From the NCBI RefSeq assembly GCF_004339765.1, contig NZ_SMGO01000001.1, positions 496,001 through 560,000 on the forward strand: DNA of 64,000 bases, written 5' to 3'. The position numbers were made by a program, and so were the translations under genes. The notes beneath the pieces are model-generated. The model was not told the origin of the DNA, did no database searches, and was given only the letters and a program-made list of their open reading frames with translations. This DNA is from Albibacterium bauzanense (GTDB taxonomy: Bacteria > Bacteroidota > Bacteroidia > Sphingobacteriales > Sphingobacteriaceae). This document shows positions 4,722 through 58,335 of the stretch, piece by piece (position 1 is the first letter of the stretch; every line of letters starts with the position of its first letter).

Positions 4722-4943
4722 TTAGTACTCATCTTCGTTAAAAAAGAAATCTTCCTTTGTAGGATAGTCCGGCCAAATCTCTTCGATATTTTCATAGGGC
4801 TCTCCGTCATCCTCCAGGGCTTGTAAGTTCTCTATAACTTCAACAGGAGCACCTGAACGGATTCCATAATCTATTAATTCATCTTTAGTTGCCGGCCAAG
4901 GCGCATCTTCTAAGTGAGATGCCAGCTCTAATGTCCAGTACAT
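4722..4943 (-). CDS. DUF2795 family small protein
   Basis: A 73-residue acidic protein beginning MYWTLELASHLEDAPWPATK. The pattern of a short helix followed by PATKDELIDYGIRSG and an acidic C-terminus matches DUF2795 proteins found throughout Bacteroidota. Their function is not known. There is no signal peptide or membrane segment, so it is probably cytosolic. It is preceded by a good housekeeping promoter (4977-5006) and ends against the palindromic terminator at 4655-4711, so it is probably transcribed alone. Confidence 0.85.
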   Translation of the reverse strand: MYWTLELASHLEDAPWPATKDELIDYGIRSGAPVEVIENLQALEDDGEPYENIEEIWPDYPTKEDFFFNEDEY

Positions 4944-5026: not shown

Positions 5027-5575
5027 TTATAAACGAGGTACCCAAATATTCTCTTCAATTTTATCGTCAAAAGATACCTTTCTTCCAAGCACAAAAAGGT
5101 AATCACTTAAGCGATTTAAATAGATCAAAACCTTCTCATCCACAAAACTTTCTTCTGATAAATGCACGGTTATTCGCTCTGCTCTGCGGCACACACACCG
5201 CGCTAAATGACAGCTGGCTACTGGCAATTCTCCGCCAGGCAATATAAAATGTTTCAAAGGAGGCAATTCCTCATTCATCTTATCAATTTCTTCTTCCAAA
5301 AGAGTAACATCTGATTCATATAGATCAGGTATTTTCATTTTTGAATGCTCAGGATCAGAAGCCAAGGAAGAACCAATGGTAAACAAACGGTCCTGAATTT
5401 CCTTCAATACTACTGCTTGTCTTTCGTCTATTTTCTGACTCCTGATTAAGCCAATATAGGAGTTAAGCTCATCGATCGTACCGTAGCTTTCAATCCGTAA
5501 ATGATGCTTAGCAACCCTTGTACCCCCTATTAGAGAGGTCTGCCCTTTATCACCTTTTTTTGTATAGATCTTCAT
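5027..5575 (-). CDS. ATP:cob(I)alamin adenosyltransferase, PduO type
   Basis: Transfers the 5'-deoxyadenosyl group of ATP to cob(I)alamin to make coenzyme B12. At 182 residues it has the usual length of the PduO-type family. Visible signatures are the N-terminal GDKGQTSLIGG phosphate-binding loop (about residues 8-18), the YGTIDELNSYIGL helix, and CRRAER with the conserved arginine. No B12 biosynthesis genes or cobalamin riboswitch are nearby, so it may serve cobalamin salvage for enzymes encoded elsewhere. Two other unrelated adenosyltransferase families exist (CobA, EutT), but the sequence fits PduO. Confidence 0.93.
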   Translation of the reverse strand: MKIYTKKGDKGQTSLIGGTRVAKHHLRIESYGTIDELNSYIGLIRSQKIDERQAVVLKEIQDRLFTIGSSLASDPEHSKMKIPDLYESDVTLLEEEIDKMNEELPPLKHFILPGGELPVASCHLARCVCRRAERITVHLSEESFVDEKVLIYLNRLSDYLFVLGRKVSFDDKIEENIWVPRL

Positions 5576-5619: not shown

Positions 5620-5656
5620 AAAAGGCACTTTATCTTGATTAGATAAAGTGCCTTTT
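5620..5656 (-). terminator. Terminator after the sigma/protease operon
   Basis: Arms 5620-5635 and 5641-5656 form a 16-bp perfect stem around a 5-nt loop. It lies 18 bp downstream of the protease stop codon, and a T-rich tail follows on the minus strand. Confidence 0.85.
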
Positions 5657-5674
5657 AAAAAACAGGATATACTT

Positions 5675-6772
5675 TTAATACACCTTAACTATGTAAACAA
5701 AATCTTGAATCTTTTTAATCTGAGCAGTCCTCGAAAGGCCTTTCAACAAGTTAGTCTTGTTAATTTGCATCTTACGATTTAATGCGTCTTTAGATATTGC
5801 ATCTACAGATTTAAGTAAATAGCTGGTCTTAATAGCAAAGGCTGCTCCATCGGCTTCCTTTTGTTTACCATTAATTACACCAATCACATTTCCGCTATCA
5901 TCTAACACCGGTCCACCGCTATTTCCAGGGTTTACAGGAATCGAAACCTGATAAGCAATCGTATCTCCACCAAAGCCTGTAGTTGAGCTTAAATAACCTC
6001 TACCATATACAGCTTCCTCACGTGGGAAACCAATGGTATAAACATCTTGTCCTAAATCTGATTCTGTCTTTTTAAATGTATAAGGCAGCGGTGCAGGTTC
6101 TTTAAAAGTAGGATCTACAATTTCCAGGATGGCGATATCATAAGTAGGGTCAATATAAACAACCTCAGTTTTAAAAGAAACGCCCTTCGTATTCTGAACA
6201 TAAATAGAATCAGCACCATTGATAACGTGGTAATTGGTAGCGATATAACCGTTAGAAGTTAAAGCAAAACCTGTACCCCCAAATGTACTTGGGGCAACTG
6301 CTTTTTCACTATTAGAACTTATATTGCTAATAACCTTATTCTGAGCATTCACATTATTCACAATCCGGTTCATATCACGCTTTAAAGCACTATATTTACT
6401 CGAATTGTCCTTTACATCACTATAAAAACCAGACATCCATAAAGTAGAAAATACAATTACTAATGCTACAGAAGCTGCTATTAATGCACTATAACCGTAG
6501 TTTTTCCAAAGTTTTACAATCCCGGTCGAACCCGATAACTTATGGATCTTAGGAGTTTCAAGCTTCGACTGTATACTCTCTAGTTTCGATCGGAAATCAA
6601 TTCTATTTTGATATTCGTTAAGTTTCTCTAATAATAGAACATGCTCCCTGTATTTTGATGCCTCCGACGGATTTTCTTTGCAATATTCTTCAAATAGCCT
6701 CCGCTCCTCTTCATTCATGCTTCCTCGAACATATGCATCTGCCTGTTCAATAAAATCAATACCCTTCTTCAT
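5675..6772 (-). CDS. Trypsin-like serine protease with anti-sigma-like N-terminus and one membrane segment
   Basis: Starting at the ATG at 6772 gives 365 residues; an upstream TTG (6823) would run into the sigma gene and is less likely. Residues 8-45 (EQADAYVRGSMNEEERRLFE and onward) resemble the helical N-terminus of membrane anti-sigma factors. Residues 95-115 are a single membrane segment. Residues 165-325 form a DegP-like trypsin fold with His182 (NYHVI), Asp212 (YDIAIL) and Ser285 (NPGNSGGPV). No PDZ domain is seen. The gene starts 14 bp after the ECF sigma factor stop, in the same operon. Predicted topology puts the anti-sigma-like part in the cytoplasm and the protease in the periplasm. 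A role as a combined anti-sigma factor and envelope sensor is inferred from this layout. Confidence 0.85.
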   Translation of the reverse strand: MKKGIDFIEQADAYVRGSMNEEERRLFEEYCKENPSEASKYREHVLLLEKLNEYQNRIDFRSKLESIQSKLETPKIHKLSGSTGIVKLWKNYGYSALIAASVALVIVFSTLWMSGFYSDVKDNSSKYSALKRDMNRIVNNVNAQNKVISNISSNSEKAVAPSTFGGTGFALTSNGYIATNYHVINGADSIYVQNTKGVSFKTEVVYIDPTYDIAILEIVDPTFKEPAPLPYTFKKTESDLGQDVYTIGFPREEAVYGRGYLSSTTGFGGDTIAYQVSIPVNPGNSGGPVLDDSGNVIGVINGKQKEADGAAFAIKTSYLLKSVDAISKDALNRKMQINKTNLLKGLSRTAQIKKIQDFVYIVKVY

Positions 6773-6786
6773 TTCATTTTTATATT

Positions 6787-7350
6787 TTAGCCGAAAAATA
6801 ACTTCTTCAGGCGTTGTAAACATTTATACTTTTGCGTTTTGGCGTTATCTGCATTGGTATAGCCAAACTTCTCACAAATCTCCTGCATGGAAAGATTCCG
6901 TAAATAAAAGTCGCTTATTATAGTCTGACACGGCTCTCCCAACAAATGCAGCGATTGCTCCATCAATAAAAACTGCTCTTCTTTCAATTGATATTCAAGC
7001 AAATCATTTTCTACAGCAACAATCTCTTCATGCTCCTGAACATTAAAACTCAGTCGATCATTCTTATTTAATCTCTTAAGCCATAACCGCCTGCATACAG
7101 AATATAAGAACGTTTTTAATTTACTACTTAAAACAAAGTCTCCACTATTTACCCGATCGTATAATACGATCACTGCTTCCTGAAAAATATCCTTCGCATC
7201 GTCCTCGCTCCCATTGTTTTTAGTCACAAGCTGAAAAACCATGGGGAAATATGCAGCGTATAAATATTCCAACTCATCAGTAGAGCCATTTGCTATACCT
7301 TCAATAACTTCCTGGTCACTCAGTACCCGACTTTTTATGTTATTCACCAT
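6787..7350 (-). CDS. ECF-type RNA polymerase sigma factor
   Basis: A 187-residue sigma-70 family protein with region 2 (about residues 27-70, including DAKDIFQEAVIVLYDRV) and region 4 (about 135-185, with LSMQEICEKFGYTNADNAKT as the helix-turn-helix). It directs RNA polymerase to a stress or envelope regulon. It is the first gene of an operon with the anti-sigma-like protease. Upstream, the motif TTGGGTTAC-N15-GTATTAA (7351-7381) is repeated in front of the divergent lipoprotein gene, which suggests autoregulation. The motif ends directly against the annotated ATG, so a transcript from it would need a start slightly inside, such as GTG codon 2. Confidence 0.92.
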   Translation of the reverse strand: MVNNIKSRVLSDQEVIEGIANGSTDELEYLYAAYFPMVFQLVTKNNGSEDDAKDIFQEAVIVLYDRVNSGDFVLSSKLKTFLYSVCRRLWLKRLNKNDRLSFNVQEHEEIVAVENDLLEYQLKEEQFLLMEQSLHLLGEPCQTIISDFYLRNLSMQEICEKFGYTNADNAKTQKYKCLQRLKKLFFG

Positions 7351-7381
7351 TTAATACTTAAAACGAATAAAAGTAACCCAA
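7351..7381 (-). promoter_or_regulatory. Putative ECF promoter of the sigma/protease operon
   Basis: Minus-strand reading: TTGGGTTAC (7381-7373), 15 bp, GTATTAA (7357-7351). The same two blocks with the same spacing occur at 7464-7494 on the plus strand. Block spacing fits ECF -35/-10 geometry. Autoregulation is an inference from the repeated motif. Confidence 0.55.
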
Positions 7382-7463
7382 TTTTCTCATTATAAAGGAA
7401 ATAAATTTACATTCAAACCAATCAACCCATGATTAATATTATTCTTCAATTTTTTTAAAATTG

Positions 7464-7494
7464 TTGGGTTACCTTTTACATCTAAATGTATTAA
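7464..7494 (+). promoter_or_regulatory. Putative ECF promoter of the small lipoprotein gene
   Basis: TTGGGTTAC (7464-7472), 15 bp, GTATTAA (7488-7494), identical in both blocks and spacing to the element before the sigma gene. The predicted transcription start near 7500 leaves a 40-nt leader before the ATG at 7540. Confidence 0.55.
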
Positions 7495-7539: not shown

Positions 7540-7731
7540 ATGAAAAATCTATTAAAATTCGGTTTCTTAGGACTAGCTTTAACTCTTGCTGTATCAGCTT
7601 GTAACACTCAACCAGCTGCAACTGAAGCAGATGACGTTGATGTAATTGTTAACGAAGACACTACTGTAGTTAACGACATCGATACTGCAGTTATCGACAC
7701 TAACGCTATCGATACTAACGTTGTAAATTAA
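7540..7731 (+). CDS. Small acidic lipoprotein with Asp/Thr/Val-rich repeats
   Basis: A 63-residue protein with a type II signal peptide: basic start MKNLLK, a hydrophobic core, and lipobox SAC with Cys21. The mature part (about 43 residues) contains no Lys, Arg, His or aromatic residues, is strongly acidic, and ends in short degenerate repeats (DTAVIDTN, AIDTNVVN). It is probably anchored in the envelope. It is divergent from the ECF sigma operon and shares its promoter motif, so it is likely a member of that regulon. Family not recognised. A strong terminator follows at 7748-7781. Confidence 0.85.
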   Translation: MKNLLKFGFLGLALTLAVSACNTQPAATEADDVDVIVNEDTTVVNDIDTAVIDTNAIDTNVVN

Positions 7732-7747
7732 TTATAATTACATCGGT

Positions 7748-7781
7748 AAAAAAACCTGTACGAAAACGTACAGGTTTTTTT
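7748..7781 (+). terminator. Intrinsic terminator of the small lipoprotein gene
   Basis: A 15-bp stem (arms 7748-7762 and 7767-7781) around an AAAA loop, with core CCTGTACG/CGTACAGG followed by a run of T. It lies 16 bp after the stop codon. Confidence 0.92.
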
Positions 7782-9325: not shown

Positions 9326-9408
9326 GCCCGGGTGGCGAAATTGGTAGACGCACCATCTTGAGGGGGTGGCGCCCTAAGGGCGTGGCAGTTCGAATCTGCT
9401 CCCGGGTA
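9326..9408 (+). tRNA. tRNA-Leu (anticodon GAG)
   Basis: Acceptor arms GCCCGGG (9326-9332) and CCCGGGT (9401-9407) pair, with a G-U pair at the end, and discriminator A at 9408. The anticodon stem is CCATC/GGTGG around loop TTGAGGG, placing GAG at 34-36. A long variable arm CGCCC-TAA-GGGCG marks a class II tRNA, and the T loop is TTCGAAT. CCA is not encoded. It reads CUC and CUU leucine codons. Confidence 0.97.
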
Positions 9409-9542
9409 CTCCTTAAATCCACAACAAACACATTTACAGATACCTAGCTCACATAATATATCTGTATATACAAACTACACACATTCTATAACCCAAACTA
9501 TCTTCTAACAGAGGATGTACAGAGGTTTAACAGTCATTTTAC

Positions 9543-58260: not shown

Positions 58261-58335
58261 GGTGGATGATGGGGCTCGAACCCACGACCCTCGGTACCAC
58301 AAACCGATGCTCTAACCAACTGAGCTACAACCACC
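58261..58335 (-). tRNA. tRNA-His (anticodon GTG)
   Basis: Minus-strand gene with the tRNA-His hallmark extra 5' G (G-1) facing C73. Anticodon stem TCGGT/ACCGA around loop TTGTGGT gives GTG at 34-36. D and T arms are normal (T stem GTGGG/CCCAT). Acceptor arms read GTGGTTG and CATCCAC, leaving a T:T mismatch at pair 5-68. CCA is not encoded. The predicted promoter is at 58350-58379. Confidence 0.93.

Follow-up and report, generated by a model that had tools for sequence, protein, structure and literature searches.

A conserved ECF sigma locus of Bacteroidota predicted to form a dedicated autoregulatory circuit for one lipoprotein

The locus considered here lies in a 64,000-nucleotide stretch of the Albibacterium bauzanense genome (positions 496,001 to 560,000 of contig NZ_SMGO01000001.1), called the window below. 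On the minus strand it holds an ECF sigma factor gene (6787-7347, 186 aa from a proposed GTG start at 7347). The product matches TIGR02937 above cut-off (73.4 bits, 1.6e-20, residues 26-183), and Sigma70_r2 likewise; region 4 has no Pfam match of its own above cut-off. As a whole it has the make-up of a two-domain sigma-70 ECF protein (sigma2 and sigma4). The sigma gene is followed on the same strand by a gene (5675-6772) whose product joins an anti-sigma-like domain, one transmembrane (TM) helix and an HtrA/DegS-type serine protease domain without PDZ (Trypsin_2, 2e-25), and then by the intrinsic terminator of this sigma-protease operon (5620-5656, minus strand, 16-bp stem). Divergent from these, on the plus strand, is a reading frame for an acidic, low-complexity lipoprotein of 63 aa (7540-7731; lipobox SAC, mature part rich in D, T and V), whose transcript would end at an intrinsic terminator with a 15-bp stem and a T run (7748-7781, plus strand). 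Elsewhere in the window, a 73-aa DUF2795 protein (4722-4943, minus strand, 2.4e-19) adjoins a cobalamin adenosyltransferase gene (5027-5575). ARAGORN reports a tRNA-Leu(gag) at 9326-9409 (plus strand) that Rfam does not report at the gathering threshold; at that threshold Rfam gives one tRNA only for the window, at 58261-58334.

Predicted ECF promoters precede both the operon and the lipoprotein gene. The sigma-operon promoter (7351-7381, minus strand) has the -35 block TTGGGTTAC at 7381-7373, a 15-nt spacer and the -10 block GTATTAA at 7357-7351; the lipoprotein-gene promoter (7464-7494, plus strand) has TTGGGTTAC at 7464-7472 and GTATTAA at 7488-7494, and its spacer opens with CTTTT. The original prediction described a bipartite motif in two opposite-strand copies with equal spacing, and a motif search of the window bore this out: TTGGGTTAC-N15-GTATTAA occurs at both positions with no mismatch, the 9- and 7-base blocks and the 15-base gap being identical on the two strands. 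It had also noticed no further TTGGGTTAC, and exact matches in the window are indeed confined to the two promoter sites. When the whole 3.08 Mb genome was searched at N15 with up to three mismatches allowed, just these two sites had zero or one mismatch; the next best had at least two, and of the four with two mismatches, three lie within long reading frames. A relaxed pattern (GGTTAC-N14-17-GTATWA) gave four genomic matches, two of them outside the locus, inside reading frames that are 284 and 877 codons long. The two promoter sites are the only intergenic copies found. A likeness due to chance or recent duplication would be compatible with there being just two copies in this genome, but comparison with other genomes refutes this explanation and leaves it with practically no probability.

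That comparison gathered 110 orthologous sigma loci, 100 of them distinct after duplicate removal and 99 of those with upstream sequence. GGGTTAC-N15/16-GTATWAA precedes the sigma gene in 98 of the 99 (N15 in 83, N16 in 15), the exception being L040; several distant loci also lack an exact -10. The same 548 kb of sequence contains 96 more copies ahead of small lipoprotein genes, spread over 82 loci, and another 5 near sigma genes, while 20 repeats of 2-mer shuffling of the 548 kb gave no match. With the motif at 98 of 99 sigma loci and absent from the shuffles, chance can be dismissed as the origin of the window pair. The motif blocks stay constant across many genera while most of the spacer diverges, a sign of selection and not of recent copying. 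In lipoprotein sites GGGTTAC is followed by a conserved CTTTT stretch, mostly absent from sigma sites. A housekeeping -7 box (TAnnTTTG) inside the lipoprotein spacer was considered and rejected: it occurs in 9 of 85, below the level in shuffled spacers. The motif also stands ahead of the sigma gene in families f23, f28, f36, f41, f49 and f68 of the same class, with a looser -10 in some members. As a separate observation, an extra copy of the motif, in the same direction and with no gene evident in the interval, lies upstream of the sigma promoter in some Pedobacter loci, at about -104 (L066, L068, L069, L071, L072) or about -297 (L096, L097, L099); it could be a tandem promoter or the start of a small RNA.

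Site conservation by itself does not identify the protein that reads the site: the two copies could serve as operators for some other DNA-binding regulator, or as promoters at which a different sigma factor controls both genes. Several features make this quite improbable. Across the orthologous loci the motif is asymmetric, with -35/-10-like blocks 15-16 bp apart and a fixed orientation to the gene, and its -10 stands just 2-3 nt ahead of the sigma start codon. Its presence also tracks the presence of this sigma gene. Among 24 same-family relatives and A. bauzanense itself, all searched for both motif and sigma gene, every sigma-bearing genome had the motif (20 of 20: 19 relatives plus A. bauzanense) and none of the five sigma-less family genomes did (G008, G009, G011, G023, G024); a reversed-pattern control gave 0 or 1 matches per genome. 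In three genomes (G004, G017, G019) no lipoprotein gene is divergent from sigma, and their lipoprotein genes elsewhere retain the motif; three others (G007, G012, G022) have further lipoprotein genes at other sites, which bear the motif too, and in several genera the lipoprotein genes stand in tandem, two or three in a row with one motif each. Autoregulated ECF promoters are textbook, and at the sequence level this feature of the group is seen here as the conserved bipartite site of the orthologues. The two sites are thus very probably promoters of the locus's own ECF sigma, and we place similarly high confidence in the reading that this sigma factor autoregulates and drives the divergent lipoprotein gene from them. 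An autoregulated sigma with the divergent lipoprotein in its regulon, as first proposed, is supported by the sigma loci (98 of 99, 82 with lipoprotein sites) and further backed by the co-occurrence of motif and sigma gene and by the relocated lipoprotein genes that keep the motif.

The sigma reading frame offers two starts: ATG 7350 (187 aa) and GTG 7347, three bases inside that frame. A start codon 2-3 nt past the -10 and in frame with sigma is found in 87 of the 98 loci (GTG in 80, TTG in 7), and in 72 of these 87 the nearest in-frame upstream signal is a stop codon; in 60 of them no other ATG, GTG or TTG precedes residue 20 of sigma. The first G of GGGTTAC lies 31-33 nt from the sigma start codon, and ATG 7350 is missing already from the sister species (L012). 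Judged from this conservation, the true start is most likely GTG 7347, not ATG 7350; the suggestion that it might be slightly internal to the annotated one pointed in the right direction. Because transcription usually starts a few bases past the -10, the sigma mRNA is expected to have its 5' end on the start codon or directly beside it and is probably leaderless or nearly so. This state is not universal, since in the distant loci of Rudanella and family f41 the ATG is further downstream. In Flavobacterium psychrophilum leaderless mRNAs are a minority (5.5%; PMC9723704). A predicted leaderless GTG start is one that automated annotation could miscall.

The second gene of the operon lies downstream of sigma in every locus with enough sequence. 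Its likely start is ATG 6772, the longest reading frame running from 6823 (382 aa), and its product has one TM segment, mostly near residue 95-115. Sequence and fold comparisons both put its periplasmic part nearest to DegS, HtrA1 and MucD, with DegS delta-PDZ as the best fold match (2.6e-12). This part has the trypsin-like fold and H-D-S triad of HtrA/DegS proteases, the triad (H199/D229/S302 in the numbering of the 382-aa frame) being invariant in 107 of 107 proteins. The C-terminal PDZ domain of that group was absent from the Pfam scan, and for this reason the protease is called DegS-like and is not filed as DegS; about 40 conserved residues, an invariant Gln among them, run from the protease domain to the end of the protein. 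Class-wide, full-length matches to this protein occur in a minority of genomes, the figure of 69 of 295 including matches to the protease part only.

The cytoplasmic N-domain is modelled by AF2 as three confident helices and a low-confidence fourth. The usual model for anti-sigma N-domains, zf-HC2, matches 30 of 46 members weakly; 8 of the 21 fold matches listed are anti-sigma chains (MucA, RslA, RsiW, RskA), every E-value exceeding 1; and a sequence search of the PDB returned unrelated helical proteins only. With zf-HC2 matches this weak and fold E-values all above 1, the domain is named anti-sigma-like and not a proven anti-sigma. Its topology, its position and the enrichment of anti-sigma folds would suit a class I (ASDI) factor, in which a helical N-domain precedes a TM helix beside an ECF gene, with no single match significant. 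The second gene might encode a mere co-made envelope protease, with sigma controlled otherwise (by its own transcription or by another anti-sigma): no N-domain match to an anti-sigma factor is strong by itself, and a class I anti-sigma domain can be recognised beside only about 6% of Bacteroidetes ECF sigma factors (PMC7406223). We consider this unlikely, though still to be reckoned with, given the invariable operon order, the cytoplasmic helical domain joined to one TM segment, and the enrichment of anti-sigma chains among the fold matches. From the individually weak matches and the gene order, we infer that the N-domain acts as an anti-sigma.

Relatives carry similar small lipoproteins downstream of the divergent motif. 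In 90 distinct relatives the mature parts average 47 residues, nearly all of them T, A, D, S, V or K; an aromatic residue, Arg or a second Cys is absent from all 90. Asp often recurs at five-residue intervals, the net charge is about -4, and the mature protein is probably disordered. Counting from the lipid Cys, Lys at +5 and Glu at +7 or +8 occur in many of them, a pattern that we take to be a faint likeness to Bacteroidota surface-export signals. Like this protein, the PG1828 family lipoprotein is small with a D/S/T/A-rich tail; assignment to that family (NCBIfam NF050142) was rejected, the score of 31.2 bits falling short of the cut-off (50). Matches to this model look as if they reflect signal peptide plus simple composition, and its best-scoring relatives in other families are without the motif. 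A tie to Porphyromonas gingivalis SigH/PG1828 through the model was likewise set aside: the match is below cut-off and probably composition-driven, and a literature search gave nothing usable.

The lipoprotein could also be a sensor or feedback signal, not an effector, with it, or a mislocalised form, being cut by the fused protease and adjusting sigma release. It is the sole constant output apart from the operon itself, and HtrA proteases tend to favour V, A and T residues before the cut, in which the mature part is rich, aromatic residues, Arg and a second Cys being absent in all 90 relatives. The same composition also suits a passive spacer, however, and in several genera the lipoprotein gene has been relocated away from the sigma locus; a sensing role seems to us doubtful. 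The preferred reading keeps the lipoprotein as the main effector of the circuit and an envelope signal as its trigger, both of which we infer.

The regulon in A. bauzanense appears narrow. Two transcription units were found, each closed by a terminator, and relaxed genome patterns gave no other convincing site. The expectation of a wider envelope-stress regulon was not supported in this genome by the motif searches, strict or relaxed; additional low-scoring targets may exist in the genome. In other genera the motif, by a relaxed pattern, stands ahead of 6 of 16 DUF4349 lipoprotein genes checked, one at 291 nt. These six are in G018, G002, G010, G014, G026 and G021 (L267, L270-L272, L276, L274), some with the relaxed form. 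The A. bauzanense genome has no DUF4349 match, and these genes would be an accessory regulon branch of several genera that is absent from it. The motif also precedes 3 of 30 DUF4294 genes, 41-43 nt from the ATG. The three belong to three genera (G021 L292, G025 L307, G012 L309), and the A. bauzanense orthologue (L288) is without the motif.

The best-supported interpretation is a dedicated autoregulatory ECF circuit for one lipoprotein, and one that appears to recur across many Bacteroidota. Its sequence-level basis comprises the promoters and their conservation, the order of the genes, the domains of the products, the catalytic triad and the near-lack of further targets. The divergent promoters would be read by the ECF sigma of 6787-7347, one giving the bicistronic mRNA for sigma and the membrane anti-sigma/protease, the other a monocistronic mRNA for the acidic lipoprotein. 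In the resting state sigma would be held by the helical, cytoplasmic domain of the protein from the second gene; an envelope signal acting on the periplasmic DegS-like domain would lead to proteolysis and free sigma, and freed sigma would yield more sigma, more inhibitor and more lipoprotein. Release through the fused protease, which is argued from the architecture and from analogy with RseA/DegS, is only slightly favoured; the site-1 protease may be the anti-sigma itself. A bolder and rather unlikely version is a one-protein switch, an anti-sigma with its own site-1 protease, on which the lipoprotein feeds back to monitor lipoprotein or outer-membrane traffic across Bacteroidota.

How most Bacteroidota ECF sigmas are restrained is an open question, and the circuit supplies a widespread, usually single-copy case. 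It offers a defined promoter, with a motif that is unusually sharp for a Bacteroidota ECF sigma, a candidate inhibitor doubling as a protease, and an output compact enough to be tested directly with reporters. A fused anti-sigma/protease with a nearly single-target regulon is undescribed in the open-access literature searched (the main ECF reclassification paper lies outside it). Several known systems come close. Escherichia coli sigma-E/RseA/DegS shares an autoregulated ECF sigma, a membrane anti-sigma(-like) operon partner and a DegS-type periplasmic protease fold, but here the anti-sigma-like domain and protease form one polypeptide without PDZ, the promoter sequence differs, and the regulon comprises about two transcription units whereas that of E. 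coli is broad. In Pseudomonas aeruginosa AlgU/MucA/AlgW/MucD, the helical N-domain has its likeness in MucA and the protease in AlgW and MucD, separate proteins there and a single fused one here, and the regulons differ. Among Bacteroidota, Dma1/Dma2 of Bacteroides (PMC13088901) pair an ECF sigma with an envelope-spanning (dual membrane-spanning) anti-sigma; the comparison is by description only, and the part of that report describing the system mentions no protease domain. The SM6 motif of F. psychrophilum (PMC9723704) likewise defines a class of ECF promoters in Bacteroidota, a sigma/anti-sigma operon among them, with a -10 CGT and T9SS targets there as against GTATTAA and a lipoprotein here.
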